Assembly (NCBI RefSeq): GCF_022227765.1
Contig: NZ_JAJMLZ010000006.1
Location: 62,001 to 126,000 of the forward strand
Length of the DNA: 64,000 nt
Origin: Ectothiorhodospira shaposhnikovii
Lineage (GTDB): Bacteria; Pseudomonadota; Gammaproteobacteria; Ectothiorhodospirales; Ectothiorhodospiraceae
Direction: 5' to 3'
Under the pieces are notes generated by a model that was given only the letters and a program-made list of their open reading frames with translations, searched no databases and was not told the DNA's origin. Position 1 is the stretch's first letter. Every line of letters begins with the position of its first letter. The position numbers were made by a program, and so were the translations under genes. Below are positions 6,372 through 62,469 of this stretch, piece by piece.

Positions 6372-7466
6372 GTGATCCGCCCCGCCCGGCTTTCCGACAT
6401 CCCCGCCCTGCTGGCGATCGAGCAACGCTGCTTTGCCAGTGACCGGCTCTCCCGCCGCCAGTTTCGCTACCTGCTGACCAAGGGCAAGGCCCATACCCTG
6501 GTGTTTGACGAAGGCGAAGGGATTCTGGGATATGTGCTGCTGCTGTTCAGTCGCGGCACGTCCATGGCCCGCCTGTATTCCATTGCCGTGGATGATGAGG
6601 CCCGCGGACGGCGCGTCGGCCGGCAACTGGTGGAGGCCGCCGAGGCGGAAGCCCGGGAGCGGGACTGTGCCTATCTGCGCCTGGAGATCCGCAAGGACAA
6701 TCAGGCCTCCATCCGTCTGTTCGAGTCCCTGGAGTATCGCCGTTTCGGCGAGTACGGGGATTATTACGAAGACCACATGGATGCCTGGCGCTACGAAAAA
6801 TCCCTGGCACCTCACCTGCGTCCGGACATGGTGCGGGTGCCTTTCTACGAACAGACCCTGGATTTCACCTGCGGGCCATCCTCGCTGATGATGGCCATGA
6901 AGGCGCTGGATGCGTCCATGGCCATGGACCGGCGTCTGGAATTGCGCCTGTGGCGGGAGGCCACCACCATTTTCATGACCGCGGGACACGGCGGCTGTGG
7001 CCCGTTCGGGCTGGCGCTTTCCGCCGCCCATCGCGGCTTCGGCGTGGAACTGACCCTGAGCGATGAGCGCATGCCCCTGCTGGACTCCGTGCGCAGCGAG
7101 GAAAAGAAGGAGGTCATGCGACTGGTGCAGGAGGACATGCTGGACGAGCTGAGGGAGCGATGCGTGCCGCTCCGCTACGGCACCCTGAGCGCGGCGGACC
7201 TGCGGGCCCGTTTCGAGGCCGGCGGCATTCCGGTGGTGCTGATCAGTTCCTACCAGATCTACGGCGAGAAGTTTCCCCACTGGGTGGTGGTGACCGGGTT
7301 TGATGATCACTTCATCTATGTGCACGATCCCTTCGTGGATTACGACAACGGTGAAACCCCCACGGATTCCATCAACATGCCCATCCTGCAGCGGGATTTC
7401 GAGCGCATGGCCCGCTACGGCAAGGCCGGGCTCAAGGCCGTGCTGGTGGTCTATCCTCGTTCCTGA
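6372..7466 (+). CDS. GNAT acetyltransferase fused to a C39-like (papain-fold) peptidase domain
   Basis: Residues 1-150 form a RimI-like GNAT domain (LYSIAVDDEARGRRVGRQLV is the acetyl-CoA loop). Residues about 158-364 form a cytosolic C39/papain-like domain with DFTCGPSSLMM (nucleophile Cys near 167), FPHWVVVTGF (His near 301) and VHDPF (Asp near 319). There is no signal peptide. Immediately downstream, after about 33 bases, is an RLAN/RimK-type ATP-grasp ligase. This pairing is known from comparative genomics as a predicted peptide-ligation and modification module with no established substrate. The start is a GTG without a clear ribosome site; the acetyltransferase fold begins at once, so it is likely correct. 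Confidence 0.88.
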   Translation: MIRPARLSDIPALLAIEQRCFASDRLSRRQFRYLLTKGKAHTLVFDEGEGILGYVLLLFSRGTSMARLYSIAVDDEARGRRVGRQLVEAAEAEARERDCAYLRLEIRKDNQASIRLFESLEYRRFGEYGDYYEDHMDAWRYEKSLAPHLRPDMVRVPFYEQTLDFTCGPSSLMMAMKALDASMAMDRRLELRLWREATTIFMTAGHGGCGPFGLALSAAHRGFGVELTLSDERMPLLDSVRSEEKKEVMRLVQEDMLDELRERCVPLRYGTLSAADLRARFEAGGIPVVLISSYQIYGEKFPHWVVVTGFDDHFIYVHDPFVDYDNGETPTDSINMPILQRDFERMARYGKAGLKAVLVVYPRS

Positions 7467-7499
7467 GCCTCCCCCTCACTCATAAGGAGAACATTATTC

Positions 7500-8972
7500 A
7501 TGTCGGATCACGTCCTGCTCATCGAGCAGCCGGGGGACTGGAAGCCCCATTTCCCCGAATACCCCGTGGTGGTGGCCGAGGACTACCTCACCAATCCCAG
7601 GTATTCCAGTCATACCCGTTTGCGAGTCATCAACCTGTGCCGTAGCCACCGCTACCTGAGCGAGGGGTATTACTGCTCTCTGCTGGCGGAGGCCCGTCAG
7701 CACAAGGTGGTGCCCACGGTGCGCACCCTGCAGGATCTGTCCAGGAAATCCATCTACAGCCTGGATACCGAGGACATCGATCGCAAGGTGGCCCGGGTGC
7801 TGGGTCGCAAGCGCGTCGGCCTGCAGCCCACCGCCTTCGAAATGACGGTCTTCTTCGGCCAGTGTGCGCCCAAGGAAATGCACGAGATCGGCCAGCAGTT
7901 GTTCTCCATTTTTCGGGCGCCCCTGTTCAAGGTGGAATTCAGGCTGGTCGGCCAGTGGCGCATCGATGCCATCAAGCCCCTGGCCCTGAACAGTCTGACC
8001 CCGGAGCAGGAAACGGCCTTTTTCGAGGCCCTGGACAACTACCTCAAGCGCCCCTGGCGCAAGCCCAGGGGGCCGCGCAACTTCAAGTACGATCTGGCCA
8101 TCCTGCAGAACCCGGACGAGGACCTGCCGCCGTCGAACCGGGCGGCCCTGAACCAGTTCGTTCGCCAGGGCAAGGCCCTGGGTCTGGAGGTGGATCTGAT
8201 CGACCGCAAGGATTTCGGTCGGCTGGCCGAGTACGACGCCCTGTTCATCCGCGAGACCACCCGGATCGACCATTACACCTACCGCTTCGCCCGCAAGGCG
8301 GACAGCGAGGGGATGGTGGTGATCGATGATCCGGATTCCATCCTCAAGTGCACCAACAAGGTCTACCTGGCGGAACTGCTGGCGGGACAGAAGGTGCCGA
8401 CGCCCAAGACCCTGATCCTGCGCAAGGAAAATATCCTGGCGGCCGAGGAGGTGATCGGTTATCCGGTGGTGCTGAAGATTCCCGACGGGTCCTTTTCCCG
8501 TGGGGTGTTCAAGGCGGAGGACCGGGCGGAGCTGGAAGATATCAGCAAGCGCCTGTTCAAGGAGTCGGACCTGATCCTGGCCCAGGAATTCGTCTACACG
8601 GAATTTGACTGGCGGGTGGGGATACTGAACAAGCAGCCCCTGTATGTGTGCCAGTACCTGATGTCCAAGAAACACTGGCAGATCGTCAACCACCAGGCCA
8701 AGGGCAACCTGCGTCAGGGGGGCTTTCGTACCCTGCCGGTGGATCAGGCTCCCCCCTTGGTGGTGAAGACGGCCCTCAAGGCCGCCAATCTGATCGGTGA
8801 CGGCCTGTACGGGGTGGATATCAAGCAGACCGACCGCGGCGTCATGGTGATCGAGGTGAACGATAACCCCAGTCTGGATGCGGGCGTGGAAGATGAGGTA
8901 CTCAAGGAGGGGTTGTATCAGGCCATCATGAAGGACTTCGTGCGACGTCTGGACCTGATGCGTCGACGGTGA
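7500..8972 (+). CDS. RimK-family ATP-grasp ligase with N-terminal RLAN domain
   Basis: This 490-residue protein has an N-terminal RimK-like (RLAN) domain (VVVAEDYLTNPRYSSHTRLR onward). A C-terminal ATP-grasp domain includes YPVVLKIPDGSFSRGVFK (ATP-binding lysine and glycine-rich loop) and VMVIEVNDNPSLDAGVED (metal-binding Glu/Asn/Asp). ATP-grasp ligases of this type add amino acids, often glutamate, to protein or peptide termini; the substrate here is unknown. AAGGAG at 7484-7489 fixes the start. It almost certainly forms an operon with the GNAT-C39 gene upstream. The sigma-54-driven amyloid gene starts 287 bases after its stop. Confidence 0.88.
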   Translation: MSDHVLLIEQPGDWKPHFPEYPVVVAEDYLTNPRYSSHTRLRVINLCRSHRYLSEGYYCSLLAEARQHKVVPTVRTLQDLSRKSIYSLDTEDIDRKVARVLGRKRVGLQPTAFEMTVFFGQCAPKEMHEIGQQLFSIFRAPLFKVEFRLVGQWRIDAIKPLALNSLTPEQETAFFEALDNYLKRPWRKPRGPRNFKYDLAILQNPDEDLPPSNRAALNQFVRQGKALGLEVDLIDRKDFGRLAEYDALFIRETTRIDHYTYRFARKADSEGMVVIDDPDSILKCTNKVYLAELLAGQKVPTPKTLILRKENILAAEEVIGYPVVLKIPDGSFSRGVFKAEDRAELEDISKRLFKESDLILAQEFVYTEFDWRVGILNKQPLYVCQYLMSKKHWQIVNHQAKGNLRQGGFRTLPVDQAPPLVVKTALKAANLIGDGLYGVDIKQTDRGVMVIEVNDNPSLDAGVEDEVLKEGLYQAIMKDFVRRLDLMRRR

Positions 8973-8982
8973 TGTATCGTGG

Positions 8983-9073
8983 CTGTTACACCCGGCCCGA
9001 AGACGCGGAAAGCGGCATGAACAGAGGCTTTACCGCTGCATCACCGTGCTGACGGGATGTCAGGGTGTAACAG
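8983..9073. promoter_or_regulatory. Widely spaced 11-bp perfect inverted repeat, candidate activator sites
   Basis: CTGTTACACCC at 8983-8993 is the exact reverse complement of GGGTGTAACAG at 9063-9073. The arms lie about 130 and 210 bases upstream of the transcript start predicted from the sigma-54 promoter at 9170-9185. That is the usual distance for enhancer-binding activator sites. The VpsR-like activator gene at 13541-14926 is the natural candidate to bind them. This is inference from position and symmetry. Confidence 0.45.
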
Positions 9074-9169
9074 TATAGAGACGGTTCTTGTAGAGAAAAT
9101 CGGTACTGTCCCTCAAAACCGTATGGGGTGGTTTCTTAAGTCGCTATTAATCCTGGTGTTTTGCTTTTC

Positions 9170-9185
9170 TGGCTCGGTCCTTGCT
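9170..9185 (+). promoter_or_regulatory. Sigma-54 (RpoN) promoter of the amyloid operon
   Basis: TGGCTCGGTCCTTGCT matches the sigma-54 consensus TGGCACG-N4-TTGCW with a single mismatch, and the GG and GC elements are correctly spaced. The predicted transcript start is near 9196, giving a leader of about 64 bases that contains the strong GAGGAGGAAC ribosome site at 9244-9253. A sigma-54 activator gene lies in the same locus, which supports the call. The 287-base gap before the gene holds this promoter, the inverted repeat and nothing else recognisable. Confidence 0.72.
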
Positions 9186-9259
9186 CTATGTGTCTCCGGG
9201 TATGGCAGGTCGTATGGATCTGCCTATCCATCCAAGCCCATGTGAGGAGGAACGATTTC

Positions 9260-10717
9260 ATGATGACTTTCAAAAAGACTGCGATTTCAGCCGCTGTTGC
9301 CCTGGCATTCGGCCTTTCCGGCGCTGCATGGGCGGATGTTGGTAATCCCGGTGACGGTGATGGCGACAGAAACGCACAGGGTGCTTACGATTCCTTCAAC
9401 GCCACTGCCACGGATTCCTTCAACAATACGGCATCGGATTCCGGCAACAACAGCTGGACGGATTCCGCCAACGACAGTTCCGATAACAGCATCAATACCA
9501 ACATTGCCGACTCCGGCAATAATCAGTCGGACAACTCGAACAATTCCGACAATAGCCTGAATACGAATATTGCCGATTCCGGCAACAATCAGTCCGACAA
9601 CAGCACCAACACCAACATTGCCGACTCCGGTAATAACATGTCGGACAACTCGAACAATTCCGATAATTCCAATAATTCGGACAACAGTCTGAATACGAAT
9701 ATTGCCGATTCCGGTAATAACCAGTCCGACAACAGCACCAACACCAATATTGCCGACTCCGGCAATAATCAGTCGGACAACAGCATCAATACCAGTATTA
9801 CCGACTCCGGCAACAGCCAAGCGGATAACAATTCCGACAACAGCACCAACACCAATATTGCCGATTCCGGCAATAACCAGTCGGATAACAGCGTCAATAC
9901 CAGCATTGCCGACTCCGGCAACAATCAGTCGGATAACAGCATCAACACCAGCATCGCCGACTCGGGCAACAGCCAGGCGGACAACAACTCCGACAACAGC
10001 ACCAACACCAATACCAGCATTGCCGACTCCGGCAACAATCAGTCCGACAACAGCACCAACACCAATATTGCCGACTCCGGCAACAATAACTCCGACAATA
10101 GTGTCAATACCAATATTGCCGACTCCGGCAACAACCAGTCGGACAATTCCAACAACTCCGACAACAGCACCAACACCAATATTGCCGATTCCGGCAACAA
10201 CCAGTCCGACAACAGCATCAATACCACCGTCAACACCAGCGTGGCTGACTCCGGTAACGATCAGTCGGATAACAGCGTGAACGACTCGTTCAATATTTCC
10301 GACTCCGGAAACAATCAGTCGGATAACTCCAATAACTCCGACAACAGTGTCAATGACTCCTTCAATACCAATATTGCCGATTCCGGCAATAACTCATCGG
10401 ATAATTCCAATAACTCCGACAACAGTGTCGTGACCACGACGACCATTGATAACAGTGTTGCCGATTCCTTCAATGTCAACATTGCCTCAATGGTGGTGTC
10501 GGAGAACGATCTGAGCGGTGCGGTGACCGATACCTATCTGTATATCGAAGGGGAAGCCAACTACACCGCTTCCAACATGATCGGCGACAGTGGCTTCAGC
10601 AACTCCGCGGGTATCACCCAAGTGGCGCAGAACGCCGGTACCAACAGCTTGGTGCAGCAGCAGGTGTCTGTTCAGGCGCATCTGGGTCTGCCGGGTAATG
10701 GTGGCGGCAGCAACTGA
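9260..10717 (+). CDS. Secreted Asn/Ser/Asp-rich repeat protein, putative major functional-amyloid subunit (Fap/curli-like)
   Basis: A signal peptide (residues 1 to about 24, ending GAAWA) precedes about 370 residues of near-perfect repeats built on NTNIADSGNNQSDNS. There are about sixteen DSGN cores, some separated by extra NNSDNS units. The repeats contain no Cys, Lys or Arg and almost no aromatics, so the protein is strongly acidic and low-complexity. The last 95 residues are non-repetitive and end NSLVQQQVSVQAHLG. This tail resembles the small protein encoded next. Low-complexity polar repeats plus an adjacent C39 peptidase and FapF-like barrel suggest an extracellular amyloid fibre subunit. 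The repeat does not resemble Pseudomonas FapC closely, so no symbol is given. Confidence 0.75.
   Translation: MMTFKKTAISAAVALAFGLSGAAWADVGNPGDGDGDRNAQGAYDSFNATATDSFNNTASDSGNNSWTDSANDSSDNSINTNIADSGNNQSDNSNNSDNSLNTNIADSGNNQSDNSTNTNIADSGNNMSDNSNNSDNSNNSDNSLNTNIADSGNNQSDNSTNTNIADSGNNQSDNSINTSITDSGNSQADNNSDNSTNTNIADSGNNQSDNSVNTSIADSGNNQSDNSINTSIADSGNSQADNNSDNSTNTNTSIADSGNNQSDNSTNTNIADSGNNNSDNSVNTNIADSGNNQSDNSNNSDNSTNTNIADSGNNQSDNSINTTVNTSVADSGNDQSDNSVNDSFNISDSGNNQSDNSNNSDNSVNDSFNTNIADSGNNSSDNSNNSDNSVVTTTTIDNSVADSFNVNIASMVVSENDLSGAVTDTYLYIEGEANYTASNMIGDSGFSNSAGITQVAQNAGTNSLVQQQVSVQAHLGLPGNGGGSN
9480..10430 (+). repeat. Coding tandem repeats, 45- to 63-bp units
   Basis: The central part of the repeat-protein gene is imperfect tandem DNA repeats. 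The core ATTGCCGACTCCGGCAA recurs with synonymous changes (GAT/GAC, TCC/TCG, AAT/AAC). The codon-level variation with strict protein conservation suggests selection on the protein rather than very recent DNA duplication. Such arrays can expand or contract by slippage or recombination, and assembly copy number should be treated with care. Confidence 0.9.
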
Positions 10718-10752
10718 GAGACTGACCTGAGCCCTCAATGACTCAGGTGCTG

Positions 10753-10785
10753 CGTGAACGGCGGGCTTCATGTCCGCCGTTCGCG
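10753..10785 (+). promoter_or_regulatory. Intercistronic hairpin between the major and minor amyloid genes
   Basis: A 12-bp stem with one G-U pair (arms 10753-10764 and 10774-10785, core GAACGGCGG/CCGCCGTTC) and a 9-base loop lies 35 bases after the repeat-protein stop. There is no T-run, so it is not a typical terminator. Its position fits an RNA processing or stability element giving more major than minor subunit, as known for other fibre operons. The function is inferred. Confidence 0.5.
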
Positions 10786-10821
10786 GCTGAAAACAGATCC
10801 CAGAGTGTGGAGGTAGACGGG

Positions 10822-11181
10822 ATGTTCGGGTACGGAAGGTCAAGAACAGTCCATGCGGGGACCGCCTTGCTGCTGATGGCGGGTGCAGCCATGCTCCTGC
10901 CTGCCCACGCGGATGATTTTTCCTTGCCTGCCGCGGTGGATGTGGGCACGCTGGAAATGCAAAGGGCCAAACAGGATATTGCGACCCTGCAACTGAGCAA
11001 TATGACGTCCAATGCCGGTCTGTCCAACACCACCATGGAGGGTGTCTTTTCCAGTGGCGATAATATTCTCAACATGGGTGTGCTGGAACATGCCCACGGT
11101 ATCAATTCGATCATTCAGAATACAGGGCACAATGTCATCATTCAGGAGTCGTTGATCCTGAATGTCAACGTGTCACCCTGA
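10822..11181 (+). CDS. Small secreted protein resembling the C-terminus of the repeat protein, putative minor or nucleator amyloid subunit
   Basis: This 119-residue protein has a signal peptide ending LLPAHA before DDF. Its C-terminus (GINSIIQNTGHNVIIQESLI) aligns with the C-terminal tail of the upstream protein (GITQVAQNAGTNSLVQQQVS). The shared pattern is G-I-x2-[VI]-x-QN-x-G-x-N-x-[LI]-[VI]-Q. A fibre operon with one large and one small related subunit resembles FapC/FapB or CsgA/CsgB. GGAGG at 10809-10813 supports the start at 10822. Its stop is five bases before the preferred start of the C39 peptidase gene. Confidence 0.7.
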   Translation: MFGYGRSRTVHAGTALLLMAGAAMLLPAHADDFSLPAAVDVGTLEMQRAKQDIATLQLSNMTSNAGLSNTTMEGVFSSGDNILNMGVLEHAHGINSIIQNTGHNVIIQESLILNVNVSP

Positions 11182-11185
11182 TCTC

Positions 11186-11893
11186 ATGACGGCGAGGCTT
11201 CTTTTTTTTGTCATGCTGGTCGGTGGGGGTGTGCTGACATGGCCCATGGGTCTGCAGGCATCCGGGGTGGTGCATGTGCCGGGCCTTGTGGGAAGTCACC
11301 CAGTGAGCGTGACCAGCCTGCAGGGCATGCGTTTCAAGACGGTCGTTCGCCAGCGCTATGATTTCAGTTGCGGATCGGCGGCACTGGCAACCTTGCTGAC
11401 CTATCACTATGGTCGGCCTGTTTCAGAACAGGATACGTTCAACGCCATGTTTGAAATGGGAGATCAGGAGCGCATCAGACAGCAGGGATTTTCCATGCTT
11501 GACATGAAGCGTTATCTACAGACGCGTCAAGGCCTGGGTTCGGATGGGTTTCGTCTACCACTGGAAAAACTGGAGGAGTTGGGGGTTCCCGCCATTGCCC
11601 TGGTGAATATCGATGGGTATCGGCATTTCGTCGTGATCAAGGGGATTCGTGATGAACGAGTGCTGTTGGGTGACCCCGCCTTGGGTATTCGGGATTACTC
11701 CAAGGCCGGATTCAAGGAGATCTGGAGCAACGACATTCTATTCCTGATTCGTGACGAGGTGAGTCGCGGTCGTGAGCAGTTCAATGCACCGGTGTCCTGG
11801 GAAGCACTCACGAAACCGCCCTACGGGACAGCACTGGCACGCGATGGGCTGTCCAATTTCCTACTGTCCCTGCCCAGGGCTTCCGACTGGTAG
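11186..11893 (+). CDS. fapD: Exported C39-family cysteine peptidase, FapD-like
   Basis: This is a periplasmic papain-fold peptidase of 235 residues. A signal peptide (MTARLLFFVMLVGGGVLTWP) precedes the catalytic segment RQRYDFSCGSAALATLL (nucleophile Cys), the histidine in GYRHFVVIKG and the aspartate in LLGDPALG. C39 domains cleave after double glycines, and FapD-type stand-alone versions belong to functional-amyloid operons. The start at 11186 gives a clean signal peptide; an ATG at 11162 overlapping the previous gene is an alternative. A recognisable double-glycine-like site lies in the next gene's product. Confidence 0.82.
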   Translation: MTARLLFFVMLVGGGVLTWPMGLQASGVVHVPGLVGSHPVSVTSLQGMRFKTVVRQRYDFSCGSAALATLLTYHYGRPVSEQDTFNAMFEMGDQERIRQQGFSMLDMKRYLQTRQGLGSDGFRLPLEKLEELGVPAIALVNIDGYRHFVVIKGIRDERVLLGDPALGIRDYSKAGFKEIWSNDILFLIRDEVSRGREQFNAPVSWEALTKPPYGTALARDGLSNFLLSLPRASDW

Positions 11894-11906
11894 TTGAGGA
11901 GGGCAT

Positions 11907-12404
11907 ATGGGTGACGTGCTGCATGGCATGGTTGGAAGAATGGCCGTCTTACTGTGGGTGGCGGCAACGCCATTCGCCCCCCTCAAGGCGGATCCTTCTT
12001 CCTTCCTGGATACTCTTGAATGGGCACGGGTACCTGATGTTGAACTGGCAGAGCAGCGCGGGGGGCTTGTACGGCGAGGTGGTTTTGAGCTGACACTGGG
12101 TCTGGAGCGCATCACCGCCATCAATGGAGAGGTGGTGGCGCATACGGTACTGCTCGATTCGGCCGGCACACGAGTGGGCCTTGAGGCCTTGGGTGGTCTC
12201 CATGTCATGACCGGGCTGGACGGCATGCGGATCGAGCAGCTTTCAGGGGCCGGATGGGCCACCGTGATCCAGAATACCCTCAATGAGCAGATGATCGCCA
12301 ATCACACCATCATGAATATCGGTCTGACAGGCATGGACCTGTCCCGGATGGAATTGCAGCGTGTCATGGATGCCGGCTTGATTCAGGGGTTGCGAGGCTA
12401 TTGA
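11907..12404 (+). CDS. Exported protein in FapE position with double-glycine-like processing site
   Basis: This is a 165-residue protein with an N-terminal hydrophobic export signal (MAVLLWVAATPFAPLKA). Residues about 43-54 read VPDVELAEQRGG. This fits the C39 recognition pattern, with Glu at -8, Leu at -7 and Gly-Gly at -2/-1 of the presumed cut. The C-terminus ATVIQNTLNEQMIANHTIMN recalls the QN-containing tails of the two upstream amyloid proteins. It starts 13 bases after the C39 peptidase stop. It sits where FapE would be, but no direct family match can be claimed. Export and cleavage are predictions. Confidence 0.6.
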   Translation: MGDVLHGMVGRMAVLLWVAATPFAPLKADPSSFLDTLEWARVPDVELAEQRGGLVRRGGFELTLGLERITAINGEVVAHTVLLDSAGTRVGLEALGGLHVMTGLDGMRIEQLSGAGWATVIQNTLNEQMIANHTIMNIGLTGMDLSRMELQRVMDAGLIQGLRGY

Positions 12405-12438
12405 GGATCTGCCTGTCCGGGATCTTTTCCGGTGATCG

Positions 12439-13494
12439 TCAGAATCGCATTGGAAAACGCAGGGATACCTGAGTGTCCGGTGCCGCCGAGGTGGCTCCGA
12501 TCCCCACCGAGACATTCATGCTGGTCCGGTCCGACAGGCGGTGTGACAGCCCCCAGAGGAAGGTCCCGACCTGAATACGGTCGAAAGCCGGATCCAGAGG
12601 TTCCCCGATTTCCCGCTTGGTCTTGAAGACCATGCTGTGGTCATAGCCGAAACTGACGGAAGTCCGGTTGTTGAGCGCGATGCCGACACCCATGCTCAAT
12701 CCCAGAGCGTCACCGGGATCGATCTTGCCCTGACCACCACCGACGTCCCTCTCCACGTTCCAGAGATAGCTGATATTGCCATAGATCACGGCCGGGTCCG
12801 TGGGGTAGATCATGGTCAGGCTCGGCTGCACGGCCCAGAAACCAGAGCCGGTGGGCTGCTCCACGAAGACTTCGGTGATCCGTTCACCTTCTTCATTGGT
12901 GATCTCCCTGCGTTCCACGTCAAACGGTGATGTCCCGGTGGTGCTCTTGACCCGCAGATTGCCGATGAAGAAGGGTTTGCCGGTGACGGCGCGGTTGAAT
13001 TGATAGTGCAGGCCCAGTTCCACGTCGCCCAGGCCGCTGCCGTCGGAGCCGGCTATCTGATCGCCGGAAGTACCCACCAAAATCTCCCGACGCCGCAGGG
13101 ACTCATCCCGCCAGACATAGGGGATCCGCAAGCCCACTTCGATCCGGTCGGTCAGGCCATACCGCAGGGCGATGGCCGCCGTGAGGGTATCCCTTTGCAC
13201 TTCGCTGACGTCGATGAGCCCGATGGCGATGGCCGGCAGGATGGTGAAGCCGTCGATGGCCACGGTGGTGGATGAACTGTGCACGTACTGCAGCGAGGGT
13301 TCCATGACCCATTGGCCTTTGGGCGTGAGCAGGCCCCGTTCTTCAAAGACCGCCGCCACGTCCGCCTGTCGCTGATCTTCGGGAGGGCGTTCACCGACGG
13401 CTTCCGGGGTCTGGGCCCAGGCCGCGGAGGAGGCGAGGTAAACGGAAAGGAGCGGAGCGGCGACTGACAAGACGCATTTTACGGACTTTGACAT
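12439..13494 (-). CDS. fapF: FapF-like outer-membrane beta-barrel (amyloid secretion pore)
   Basis: This 351-residue protein has a signal peptide ending SSAAWAQ and a short helical segment (RQADVAAVFEERG). The segments LTPKGQWVMEPSLQYVHSSS, AIAIGLIDVSEVQRDTLTAA, GLTDRIEVGLRIPYVWRDE and GSGLGDVELGLHYQFN strongly recall FapF, the trimeric pore that exports fap amyloid subunits. The C-terminal residue is Phe (RFPMRF), as in outer-membrane barrels. AGGA about eight bases upstream supports the start at 13494; a longer frame would overlap the regulator gene. It is convergent with the amyloid operon, 34 bases from it, and lies 46 bases downstream of the regulator gene. Confidence 0.82.
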   Translation of the reverse strand: MSKSVKCVLSVAAPLLSVYLASSAAWAQTPEAVGERPPEDQRQADVAAVFEERGLLTPKGQWVMEPSLQYVHSSSTTVAIDGFTILPAIAIGLIDVSEVQRDTLTAAIALRYGLTDRIEVGLRIPYVWRDESLRRREILVGTSGDQIAGSDGSGLGDVELGLHYQFNRAVTGKPFFIGNLRVKSTTGTSPFDVERREITNEEGERITEVFVEQPTGSGFWAVQPSLTMIYPTDPAVIYGNISYLWNVERDVGGGQGKIDPGDALGLSMGVGIALNNRTSVSFGYDHSMVFKTKREIGEPLDPAFDRIQVGTFLWGLSHRLSDRTSMNVSVGIGATSAAPDTQVSLRFPMRF

Positions 13495-13540
13495 GCAGAC
13501 ATTCCTGTGGCGGCGAGTGGCGCTTGCATGGCTGGGTGAT

Positions 13541-14926
13541 TCAGGGGTGGCTTGACATGGATTCCCGCGTGGGTTCCTGTCCCGATAGCGGGATGTCGTG
13601 ACGGCGGGCCAGTCGGTAGAGCGTGATGCGCGAGACGCCGAGCCGGCGGGCGGCGGCGGAGACGTTGCCTTCGCAGAGCTGCAGGGCGTCCTGAATGGCC
13701 TGGCGTTCCGCGTCTGCACGAATGGCTTCAAGACTGACATGCCTGGAGGCGGTGACCAGGACATCCTCCAGTCCCAGGTCCGAGGGCTGGATGAAGCGAT
13801 GTTCACAGAGCACCAGGGCCCGTCGGACGCGGTTGATCAGCTCGCGAACATTGCCCGGCCAGCGATGGTCGCGGATGGCCTCCAGGGAGGCAGCGCTGAA
13901 CCCCTTCACCGGTCTGGCCCGGTCGGTGGAAAACTTGCGGAAGAAATGCCTGGCCATCAGTACGGCGTCGCAGCCCCGCTCCCGCAGCGGGGGCATTTCG
14001 AAACGGAGTACGTCCAGCCGGTAGTAGAGGTCTTCCCGAAAACGCCCGGAGTGAACCGCGGCCTCCAGGTCCACGTGGGTGGCGGCAACCACCCGGACAT
14101 CCACCTTTTCCTCATGGTCGCTGCCCACTTTCTGAACCGTCTGGTTTTGCAGGAATCGCAGCAGGGCTGCCTGGACTTCCAACGGCAGATCACCGATTTC
14201 GTCAAGAAACAGCGTGCCGCCATTGGCTGCCTGCACCCGGCCCGCGCGGGCCTTGTGCGCTCCGGTGAAGGCGCCGCGTTCGTGACCGAAAAGTTCCGAC
14301 TGGATCAGGGAAGCGGGAACGGCGGCGCAGTTGATGGCCTCAAAGGGGCCGTCAGCCCGAGGGGATTGGTCATGGACCGCTCGGGCCGCCAGCTCCTTAC
14401 CGGTCCCGCTCTCCCCGGTGATGAGTACCGGGGCGCTGACCCTTGCCACTTTGGCAATGGTGCGCATCACCTGAAGCATGGCCGGGCTTTCGCCGATCAA
14501 GGGGCTGTCTTTGAGCTTGACGGAGATGGGAGGGGGGGTGTGGAGCAGCTGGGCCATCCCGGCGGCATGACCCAGGACGACTTGCAGGCGATAAGGGTCG
14601 ATGGGTAGAGAGTGAAAATCATGGCAGCAATGACGCAGCAGTTCCCTCACTCGGGTTTCCCACAGCAGGGTGGGTTCCACCAAGGCGACCCATTCGGTGT
14701 CGCTGTGGCGGCGCAGAAATGCCTCCAGGTCCGGCAGGAGCGCCTGGGTGGATGCCTGCAGAAGGAATGCGCCGACCGGGACATGCTCCTGAGTCAGAAA
14801 CGCCTCTGCCTCTGCCACGGTGGTGGCTGCCAGCACGCACCAGTGACTGCCCAGCGGCGGTGGGCTTGGGGCATGGGAACAATCGATCCAGAGCAGCCGG
14901 TGATGGGATTCTCGGCCTGAGTCCAT
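13541..14926 (-). CDS. VpsR-like sigma-54-dependent transcriptional activator
   Basis: This is a bacterial enhancer-binding protein of 461 residues. The N-terminal region (1-140) is an atypical, receiver-like VpsR-type domain without a clear phospho-acceptor pattern. The central AAA+ domain has Walker A GESGTGKE at 171-178, the sigma-54-contacting loop GAFTGA near 218-223, Walker [14 protein letters not shown] and the arginine-finger region. A Fis-type helix-turn-helix ([19 protein letters not shown]) closes the protein. VpsR and FleQ relatives respond to cyclic di-GMP and control matrix genes. Its position next to a sigma-54 promoter for an amyloid gene makes that its probable target. Confidence 0.88.
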
Positions 14927-14985
14927 AATGGTACTCCCCCGCTATGTCCCTTTCCGTGGCGTATGATGACAGATACAGCCCTGTT

Positions 14986-15763: not shown

Positions 15764-15869
15764 GGGGTGGATCTCCCTAATTGGATGGTGCGGGATTTGG
15801 GGGATGTGTCTGAACAGGTCATTGCCTTGTTTAACAGGATATCGCCTGGTTTGAAAAGGTTCCCCCCGT

Positions 15870-15980
15870 GGGTCATTCCCCCTCTATGGGTCATTCCTCT
15901 CTATGGGTCATTCCCGCGAAAGCGGGAATCCAGCAGTGCTAAGGACACCCTCTGGACTCCCGCTTTCGCGGGAGTGACGG
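15870..15980. repeat. REPIN-like paired palindromes with GGGTCATTCC direct repeats
   Basis: Two hairpins of one family face each other. The first is ATTCCCGC-GAAA-GCGGGAAT at 15910-15929, and the second is ACTCCCGC-TTTC-GCGGGAGT at 15956-15975. The 74-bp unit begins GTCA and ends TGAC, and its inner parts (CCAG / CTGG) also pair. Upstream, GGGTCATTCC occurs three times (15870-15879, 15888-15897, 15905-15914). With the tandem array that follows, this fills most of the 323-base gap between the HMA gene and ilvD. Confidence 0.85.
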
Positions 15981-16037
15981 GTAAACGGGAGTGACGGGTA
16001 AGCGGGAGTGACGGGTAAGCGGGAGTGACGGATAGGT
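15970..16037. repeat. 17-bp tandem repeat, four copies
   Basis: GGGAGTGACGGGTAAGC-type units occupy 15970-15986, 15987-16003, 16004-16020 and 16021-16037, with the middle two identical. The array begins within the right end of the REPIN-like element and looks like repeated duplication of that end. It ends 49 bases before ilvD. Confidence 0.9.
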
Positions 16038-16086
16038 CAGTGGAAGGTGTAAACTGTACGGTCTTGGCAGCACTTCGGAGTTCACC

Positions 16087-60984: not shown

Positions 60985-62469
60985 ATGGGAGAACCACGCC
61001 GACACTGGGGCTTCTGGCTGCTACTGGGACTGGCGGTCTATTTCACCCTCCACGTGATCATCCGCGCCACCGGGTCCGCGGTGCTGGAGCTGGACGAGGC
61101 CGAGCAGGTCATTGTGACCCAGTGGTGGCTGGCCGGGTATTCCGGGCAGCCCCCCCTCTATGCCTGGCTGCAGGCCGTGGCGTTTCGGGTGCTGGGCATG
61201 GACCTGTGGGCCCTGAGCCTGGTCAAGAACACCTTGCTGTTTCTTACCTGGTTGTTCGTGTTCCTCTCCGCCCGGCGTCTGTTGGGGGATGTCCGACTGG
61301 CGGTGCTGGCCACCCTGTCCCTGTTCCTGATCCCCCAGGTGGCCTGGGAGTCCCAGCGGGATCTGACCCATTCGGTGATGGTGACCACGGTGGCGGCCGC
61401 ATCCTTTTACGCGATGCTGCGTTGGCTGGACCGGCCCCATGTGGGGCATTACCTGCTGATCGGCCTGCTGTTCGGGCTGGGGGTGTTGTCCAAGTACAAC
61501 TTTCTGGTGTTCGCCGCCGCCGCCGGGCTGGCCCTGCTGAGCTGTGCTCGGGGACGGTCCCTGCTGCTGCATCCGCGCATCCTGTGGAGTGCCCTGGTGG
61601 CGTTGCTGGTGATCCTGCCCCACGCCCTGTGGGTCTGGCACAGCCGGGATCTGGGCACCCAGTCCCTGGACAAGCTGGATTTCGGGGGTGGATTCTGGCC
61701 CTGGTCCGGGCTGGGTTCCCTGGTGCTGGCGGTACTGGGCTTCCTGGCATTGCTGCTGCTGGTCATGGGGGCGGTGTTCCGGCGGGATTTTTTCCGTGCC
61801 CTGCTCAAGCGCCGGGGCGGTCCGGCGGCTTTTCCCATCCACCGCTACCTCTGGATCCTGTTGGGTCTGCTGGTGCTGATGGCCCTGCTGGGGGTGTCCC
61901 ACTTCAAGGACCGCTGGATGCTGCCCCTGCTGCTGGTCTTTCCTCTGTTCGTGTTCGCCATGATGGGCACGGCGGCCCTGACCCGTGCCCGGGTGCGGAC
62001 GTATCTGTCGGTCTGTCTGCTGGTGCCCGTGCTGGTGCTGGTGGTGATGGCCTGGCGGGTGCAGACCTGGCCGGTGCTGGAGTCCCAGCATCGGCATGTC
62101 TACCCCTTTGACGAGCGGGTGAGCGAGATCCGGGATCTGGGCTTCAGCCAGGGTCTGATCGTGGGAGATCGGGCCTTTGTGGCGGGCAATCTGCGTTTTC
62201 GCCTGCCCCGGAGTCAGGCCGTGATCCCGGGGGTGAATCCCGGCGGGCTGCGGTGCAGACCCGGTGATGATCTGCTGGTGGCCTGGGACGCGGACCGACA
62301 GCGACAGATCCCCGCTCGGCTTGGGGACTGGCTCACGGCGGAACTGGGCCTGTCCACCGGGGACCTGATGCCCCGGTGGCTGGCATCCGGTGCTGGGGCA
62401 GGCCCGGTGATGGGCGTGGTGGTGTTGCCGGGGGTGCTGGAGGGGGATTGCCGGGTGAGTGCTCAATAG
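60985..62469 (+). CDS. GT39-like membrane glycosyltransferase (resident paralogue)
   Basis: This is a polytopic membrane protein of 494 residues with about eleven membrane segments. ELDEAEQVIVTQWWLAGY is the extracytoplasmic acidic loop, followed by QPPLYAWLQAV and SQRDLTHSVMVTTVAAASFY. It probably uses a polyprenyl-phosphate sugar donor on the periplasmic side to decorate lipid A or core. AAAGG six bases before 60985 favours that ATG; 60970 is possible but overlaps the previous stop. Its stop overlaps the convergent lpxL stop by seven bases. Confidence 0.84.
   Translation: MGEPRRHWGFWLLLGLAVYFTLHVIIRATGSAVLELDEAEQVIVTQWWLAGYSGQPPLYAWLQAVAFRVLGMDLWALSLVKNTLLFLTWLFVFLSARRLLGDVRLAVLATLSLFLIPQVAWESQRDLTHSVMVTTVAAASFYAMLRWLDRPHVGHYLLIGLLFGLGVLSKYNFLVFAAAAGLALLSCARGRSLLLHPRILWSALVALLVILPHALWVWHSRDLGTQSLDKLDFGGGFWPWSGLGSLVLAVLGFLALLLLVMGAVFRRDFFRALLKRRGGPAAFPIHRYLWILLGLLVLMALLGVSHFKDRWMLPLLLVFPLFVFAMMGTAALTRARVRTYLSVCLLVPVLVLVVMAWRVQTWPVLESQHRHVYPFDERVSEIRDLGFSQGLIVGDRAFVAGNLRFRLPRSQAVIPGVNPGGLRCRPGDDLLVAWDADRQRQIPARLGDWLTAELGLSTGDLMPRWLASGAGAGPVMGVVVLPGVLEGDCRVSAQ

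Follow-up and report, generated by a model that had tools for sequence, protein, structure and literature searches.

The stretch of DNA analysed here, 64,000 nucleotides from Ectothiorhodospira shaposhnikovii (positions 62,001 to 126,000 of contig NZ_JAJMLZ010000006.1; hereafter, the window), carries at 9260-14926 a real and conserved export locus that resembles the functional-amyloid (Fap) loci and lies on a separate branch. What is new is a branch that has a gene set of its own and a common processing tag, LxxxRGG, which makes the question of the target of the peptidase FapD testable. The presence of the tag in three partners of the peptidase, i.e. the exported protein E, the small subunit B and the pore F, is a new finding of this work. 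The tag resembles the double-glycine leaders that C39 peptidases cut, and it probably marks the cleavage sites of the FapD-like peptidase.

The locus is formed by six genes, whose reading frames are all intact in the window sequence. On the forward strand, REP (9260-10717, 485 aa) codes for an exported Asn/Ser/Asp repeat protein with a 16-residue period, which is the candidate major fibre subunit. It is followed by B (10822-11181), a small exported subunit in which the C-terminal motif of REP is also present, by C39 (11186-11893), a FapD-like cysteine peptidase with an export signal, and by E (11907-12404), an exported protein in the position of FapE. On the reverse strand are F (12439-13494), a FapF-like outer-membrane barrel without periplasmic coiled coil, and ACT (13541-14926), a sigma-54 activator with a VpsR domain that heads the ACT-F unit. 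Signal peptides, that of B among them, were assigned by eye, and coiled coils by a pattern measure and by eye. An original prediction made from the sequence had placed these six genes within 6 kb, with the pore and the activator on the opposite strand and no FapA evident; coordinates and strands agree, and neither FapA nor an ATP-binding cassette (ABC) transporter is found among the six genes. In the source genome of 3.34 Mb the peptidase and the pore have one match each at E <= 0.001.

The arrangement is not due to chance, because 15 other loci have the complete set of six genes with neither order nor orientation altered. This synteny survey confirmed the co-occurrence that had been proposed, with REP, B, C39 and E on one strand and F and ACT on the other. 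The 16 genomes with the full cassette, the one of the window included, fall in two genera, Ectothiorhodospira and Thioalkalivibrio; among the carriers are Ectothiorhodospira lacustris, E. marina, two strains of E. mobilis and two Thioalkalivibrio strains. In the family search, a peptidase match at E <= 1e-15 was obtained in 17 of 47 genomes, its own one included, and two of ten genomes of the same genus were without a peptidase match. E has a match in 14 of the 398 genomes of a phylum sample, again counting its own.

The branch may be large. Scanning contigs with the peptidase pattern gave at least 596 matches, and 589 of those listed are relatives of the query. The wider set studied here consists of the best 80 of these at least 589 relatives, picked by likeness of the peptidase, from which 74 were counted, since six (L040-L044 and L046) repeat cassette species. 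In the stretches fetched around the 74 loci, B is present in 69, E in 67, F in 71, an activator in 34 and a recognisable REP motif in 31. B, C39 and E are consecutive on one strand in 67 loci. Of the 71 loci with F, 35 have it on the same strand, and 18 show the layout of the window, in which F is downstream on the opposite strand with ACT beside it on the strand of F. The hosts include Marinobacter, Lysobacter and its relatives, Cupriavidus, Variovorax, Massilia and its relatives, Paraburkholderia, Halomonadaceae, Woeseiaceae and some Alphaproteobacteria, among others. On a Photobacterium plasmid (L171, 2656-12469) the branch locus has a REP-like protein on either side of B, and it has two sigma-54 activators.

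No paper describing this branch was found by title or abstract in the open-licence literature. One study mentions fapD and fapF homologues that are co-located in five more phyla (PMC6173800), and these may include relatives of the branch. A survey of GTDB genomes required homologues of the FapB/C repeats (PMC12822426) and for that reason probably missed it.

Profile searches support the kinship with FapD and FapF on which the original prediction depended. C39 matches Peptidase_C39 (1.1e-20) and the NCBIfam model for FapD, NF058616, at 2e-41, with 142 bits against an equivalog cut-off of 330; the peptidases of 15 loci taken as canonical Fap score 197-284 bits on this model, likewise under the cut-off. 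Residues Cys62, His147 and Asp163, which we take to be the catalytic ones, are invariant in an alignment of 10 relatives, and the best sequence match in the PDB to the peptidase domains of ABC exporters is 9.5e-8. F matches the FapF model NF058560 at 1.4e-45 (156 bits, equivalog cut-off 700) and the FapF crystal structures 5o65, 5o67 and 5o68 (best 8.3e-33). A periplasmic coiled coil of FapF type was not found on F in any of the 16 cassettes, where the stretch before the barrel spans 40-46 residues by a crude pattern measure, with the sequences checked by eye. The same pattern gives 106-126 residues for seven of the eight canonical F proteins that could be measured and 53 for the eighth (5 of 13 were not measurable). 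In the wider set, it gives 55 residues or fewer in 9 of 54 measurable F proteins, 17 not being measurable.

The distinct branch that had been proposed is recovered in the phylogeny of the peptidase. In a tree of 109 C39 sequences the canonical Fap peptidases (13 rows plus L110b) split from this branch (95 rows) with a support of 100 in the Shimodaira-Hasegawa approximate likelihood ratio test (SH-aLRT). The trees were obtained by quick searches with SH-aLRT only and midpoint rooting, and they came with long-branch warnings; the final one leaves out six long-branch rows (L036-L039, L163 and L164) and includes five more branch loci (L165-L169) that stand outside the tag counts given below. With or without the long-branch rows, canonical Fap needs two changes on the tree, and in the final tree the second is L110b. 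In the canonical set, L163 and L164 have neither a barrel next to the peptidase nor an activator, and L153 is without the repeat pattern. L110b is the canonical copy in Aidingimonas halophila (Halomonadaceae), in which a locus of the window branch stands side by side with a canonical-type fapD/fapE pair (L110, 8524-17507). The two peptidase kinds of this species lie within 18.7 kb, and the FapD profile gives them 131 and 284 bits; they therefore belong to different systems that are able to coexist. Judged by sequence, the distinctness of the locus from canonical Fap holds.

The LxxxRGG tag was counted in 90 loci, i.e. the 16 cassettes and the 74 wider loci, on automatically called reading frames, in which the start codons may have been set too far upstream. 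It is present in 80 of 83 E proteins, 39 of 85 B and 19 of 87 F, compared with none of 90 C39, 2 of 50 ACT and none of 47 REP, and with 0.3-3% in shuffled sequences. One of the three misses in E is a neighbouring canonical FapE, the own E of that locus having the tag. All 16 cassette E proteins carry it, 22-42 residues past the signal core. In an alignment of 23 E proteins, in which the others are 19-93% identical to that of the window, eight columns are invariant, and the L, R, G and G of the tag account for four of them. The tag reads LAEQRGG in the window E, and its RGG, the predicted C39 cleavage site, is coded at 12057-12065 (forward strand). A tag-like motif in B, LEMQRAK (10951-10971, forward strand), has the form LxxxRA[KRM] in all 16 cassettes. 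The tag-bearing F proteins belong to the wider set, and in them the tag ends, as seen by eye, a heptad-like, coiled-coil-looking stretch before the barrel linker. The window F has neither coiled coil nor tag. Because F of the cassette lacks both while the peptidase is kept, E and B, rather than F, would be the needed target here, and cleavage of F at a tag of this kind cannot explain the retention of the peptidase in the window.

The length of E on the two sides of the tag is as expected of a propeptide, since the piece after the tag is steady (median 120 residues, quartiles 116-130, n = 81) and the piece before it is variable (quartiles 62-154, on uncurated starts). In five loci (L097, L111, L118, L051 and L053) E has several hundred residues before RGG, an unusually long presumed propeptide on starts that are uncurated as well. 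The AlphaFold model of E has a mean predicted local distance difference test score (pLDDT) of 56.9 and places a short helix at residues 44-50 that ends just before RGG, which fits a C39 leader at low confidence. Canonical FapE carries LxxxRG[RK] near the N-terminus in 13 of 16 loci, and in Pseudomonas mass spectrometry gave no peptides from the first ~70 residues of FapE (PMC5557850). The target of FapD itself "remains unclear" according to one source (PMC5557850) and is "yet to be determined" according to another (PMC6173800).

With an E-value limit of 1, neither Pfam nor NCBIfam gave a family for REP, B or E. REP is, in addition, without the triple Fap repeats, so that the major-subunit candidate is unlike FapC, as originally noticed. 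Its body varies among relatives: the cassette and a Marinobacter have Asn/Ser/Asp repeats, examples from Lysobacter, Variovorax and Paraburkholderia have Gly-rich bodies, and Crenobacter has a Thr-rich one. The C-terminal motif (VVSENDLSG...AGITQVAQNAGTNSLVQQQVSVQAHL, 10493-10684, forward strand) is kept although the bodies differ widely; it has invariant columns and is possibly one repeat of Fap type. B is homologous to REP at the C-terminus (hhalign probability about 95%), so the proposed relation of the small protein to the large one stands for this motif and does not extend beyond it. A C-terminal motif of ~30 residues is also common to B and E (72-93%), which are probably homologous there. 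A profile of FapB-type repeats scores above 5 bits in 22 of 85 B proteins vs 21 of 1700 shuffles, and in 7 of 48 REP proteins vs 8 of 960 shuffles. The similarity of E to canonical FapE is weak, with one match in 15 loci (4e-7). A branch locus on a Croceicoccus marinus plasmid (L173, 5396-6403) has a large protein with VADSGNDNSDNS repeats nearly identical to those of the window; the plasmid record annotates the genes as hypothetical protein, C39 family peptidase and transporter.

The regulation of the locus is of a known kind. A sigma-54 (-24/-12) promoter match, TGGCTCGGTCCTTGCT, is located at 9170-9185 on the forward strand and agrees at 11 of 12 specified positions, with none of 200 shuffles as good; the near-consensus promoter reported before the major subunit is thus there. 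All 16 cassettes have such a match 74-88 bp ahead of the REP start codon, the shuffle p being <= 0.05 in 11 of them and 0.17 in the worst. Farther upstream, near -285 and -195, there are two inverted repeats that are candidates for activator binding. The first (TGTATC-N6-GTTACA, 8973-8990, forward strand) fits all 12 consensus positions and is the sole such place in 64 kb, and the second (9066-9083, forward strand) fits 10 of 12. Both are found at matching places in 13 of the 16 cassettes (the exceptions are L026, L034 and L035), the first 267-289 bp and the second 177-197 bp before the REP start, and their summed score was reached by at most 3 of 200 shuffles in any locus. Four places in 64 kb score at least 10 of 12, three of them at the locus. 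A possible third repeat before ACT (14960-14977, reverse strand, 10 of 12) is not conserved, the best scores being 7-9 in the nine relatives scanned there. ACT itself has a VpsR domain (4.2e-12), a sigma-54 AAA+ domain (1.7e-71) and a Fis-type helix-turn-helix (2e-11), and rpoN is present in the genome.

Two claims about this regulation had to be given up, namely that sigma-54 control with a dedicated adjacent activator is a difference from Fap and that canonical fap has no VpsR-like activator. In Pseudomonas fluorescens PF07, according to two papers, brfA lies next to fapA-F, downstream and in reverse orientation, the fapA-E promoter is of the -24/-12 type and RpoN-dependent, and BrfA senses cyclic di-GMP (c-di-GMP) (PMC9207406, PMC13101488). 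Moreover, a sigma-54 activator is present in 13 of the 15 canonical fap loci (stretches of 11-15 kb, one cut by the contig end), and a VpsR domain was found in the activator of five of the seven canonical loci scanned. BrfA and these 13 loci rule out the activator as a mark that sets the branch apart. BrfA is the precedent for ACT, which is likewise reverse and downstream in its locus. BerB of Burkholderia cenocepacia is another RpoN-type activator of the biofilm matrix encoded near its target, although it acts via berA on exopolysaccharide genes (PMC5552954). Both were likened to ACT by description and gene position, not by sequence.

Taken with Fap as a whole, the locus shares a C39 peptidase (FapD in Fap), a FapF-type barrel, a sigma-54 promoter, an adjacent sigma-54 activator, and a protein E that occupies the place of FapE and has an LxxxRG tag, a feature recognised in this work and not one of the published criteria for Fap. 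It differs in being without FapA, in having the large subunit gene before the small one, in the absence of the three Fap repeats from REP and B and of the coiled coil from F, in a tag with RGG instead of the canonical RG[RK], and in a C39 that falls in a separate clade. Two such features are already published for Fap, i.e. the loss of FapA and the separation of fapF: one comparison has fapF split from the operon in 4 of 16 genera and fapA absent in 6 of 16 (PMC3792158).

We think it rather probable that the six genes form a Fap-like locus for export and assembly of a biofilm surface fibre, switched by ACT, in which C39 cuts E and probably B. The structural proteins would leave the cytoplasm by the Sec pathway, as their signals suggest, and in the periplasm the stand-alone C39 would cut E after LAEQRGG and, probably, also B, at the degenerate form LEMQRA. 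The cut at the tag would license export; we infer this from the case of FapD, in which secretion of FapC requires the catalytic Cys. Next, REP, B and E would pass the barrel F, which would function without a coiled coil, and assemble outside. By analogy, REP may be the fibre body, B a nucleator or cap, and E an anchor, and the likely sticking point is the C-terminal motif common to REP and B and to B and E. ACT, probably c-di-GMP-responsive like BrfA, would bind the two inverted repeats that precede the sigma-54 promoter and would switch on the REP-B-C39-E unit, while being co-made with the pore F. In this account the genes, their synteny, the homology of C39 and F, the promoter match and the conserved tag are observed. 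Cleavage, export, the fibre and c-di-GMP sensing are inferred, and so is the amyloid nature of the product, which may follow by analogy with Fap.

Several observations weigh against this reading. As for the fibre, no triple GNIGVN-type Fap repeat was seen in REP or B, which have at most one distant repeat-like motif each. The motifs of REP and B compare with FapC repeats at hhalign probabilities of 0.4% and 4.6%, and with FapB-type repeats at 31-71% on a profile built from only 8 repeats of 4 loci; the AlphaFold model of REP (pLDDT 36.5) has no confident fold and does not indicate an ordered cross-beta core. As for secretion, the window F lacks the coiled coil, an element reported to be critical in the secretion of FapC, and C39 scores almost the same on the FilB profile (1.2e-40, 139.6 bits) as on FapD (141.7 bits). 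As for the tag, the window B carries RA and not GG, 11 of the 19 tag-bearing F proteins are from Cupriavidus, and 3 of 16 canonical loci are without LxxxRG[RK] by the pattern used. The tag counts are, in addition, not independent, since the E proteins are homologous and B and E have a common motif, so that at most two carriers, B/E and F, count as independent. Finally, the consensus of the inverted repeats was derived from the sequences on which it was scored, which makes that test generous.

A wider proposal, to which we give a little less than an even chance, is that the locus represents a large, unnamed branch of C39-plus-barrel secretion, the third after Fap and Fil, that extends over Alpha-, Beta- and Gammaproteobacteria. 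One exported C39 would cut the tag LxxxRGG in E, in B and in those F proteins that have a coiled coil, thus in three partners at most, opening the pore and releasing fibre subunits whose bodies are free to evolve while one amyloid-like cap motif is conserved.

The strongest alternative to an amyloid-type fibre is a non-amyloid adhesin, which we consider rather unlikely. F would then export REP as a long acidic polymer, disordered or stiffened by calcium and held by the C-terminal motif, which would help the cell to attach or to stay hydrated in salty, alkaline water. Such a polymer would suit the composition of REP, with 29% Asn and 22% Ser in the middle and 58 Asp vs 3 Lys plus Arg, as well as the lack of a predicted fold, the high variability of the middle among relatives, in which only the C-terminal motif is retained, and the finding of at most one Fap-like repeat vs three. 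However, the glutamine/asparagine-rich motif common to B and REP weakly resembles Fap amyloid repeats, the 16-residue period would equally suit stacked strands, and AlphaFold frequently fails on amyloid proteins.

That the locus is closer to Fil, the putative pilus FilABCDEF of Acinetobacter, than to Fap, with C39 and barrel shared and a different fibre exported, seems improbable to us. The near equality of the FilB and FapD scores invites the comparison, and the Fil locus has FilA, a C39 gene and a barrel-like protein side by side, FilA bearing a tag-like LSAATGQ (LxxxTGQ) after its signal. The barrel and the other proteins are unlike those of Fil as far as compared: F prefers FapF (1.4e-45) over FilC (1.5e-13), the gene order B-C39-E is like that of Fap (B/C, D, E), and REP, B and E lack an NCBIfam match at E up to 1, in a library whose coverage of Fil models was unchecked. 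We give very little credit to a locus for maturation of bacteriocin- or microcin-type peptides, which is suggested by a C39 peptidase together with GG-type leaders as in peptidase-containing ABC transporters (PCATs) and bacteriocin exporters, because here the peptidase is stand-alone and exported, no ABC transporter is among the six genes, the substrates have Sec-type signals by eye, and the barrel and regulator are of Fap type.

For a Fap-like export locus, we think that the branch has a particular value in turning a guess about the FapD target into an exact, mutable site, to which B is added as a likely further target. The natural deletion in the cassette, with F deprived of its coiled coil and the peptidase kept, separates the hypotheses of E and of F as target. 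Moreover, Aidingimonas halophila, with both kinds, is a ready test of cross-talk between the systems.

Other C39 loci were observed in four relatives (L036, 6667-8564; L037, 6359-8256; L038, 1271-3383; L039, 7379-8083), as a second C39 locus in three of them. An F-like barrel adjoins the peptidase in three, B, E and REP of the present kind are absent from them, and the peptidase of L036 is nearer to FilB than to FapD. Just upstream of the locus, at 6372-8972, the window has a gene for a GNAT acetyltransferase that is joined to a C39-like domain (DUF3335) and, after it, one for a RimK-like ATP-grasp ligase. These genes were considered as parts of the locus and rejected, being beside only 2 of 15 related cassettes in the fetched stretches. 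On the other side, at 15861-16051, there is a hairpin element with 44-nt arms that are 80% complementary, followed by 17-nt direct repeats, which is probably a dispersed intergenic repeat.

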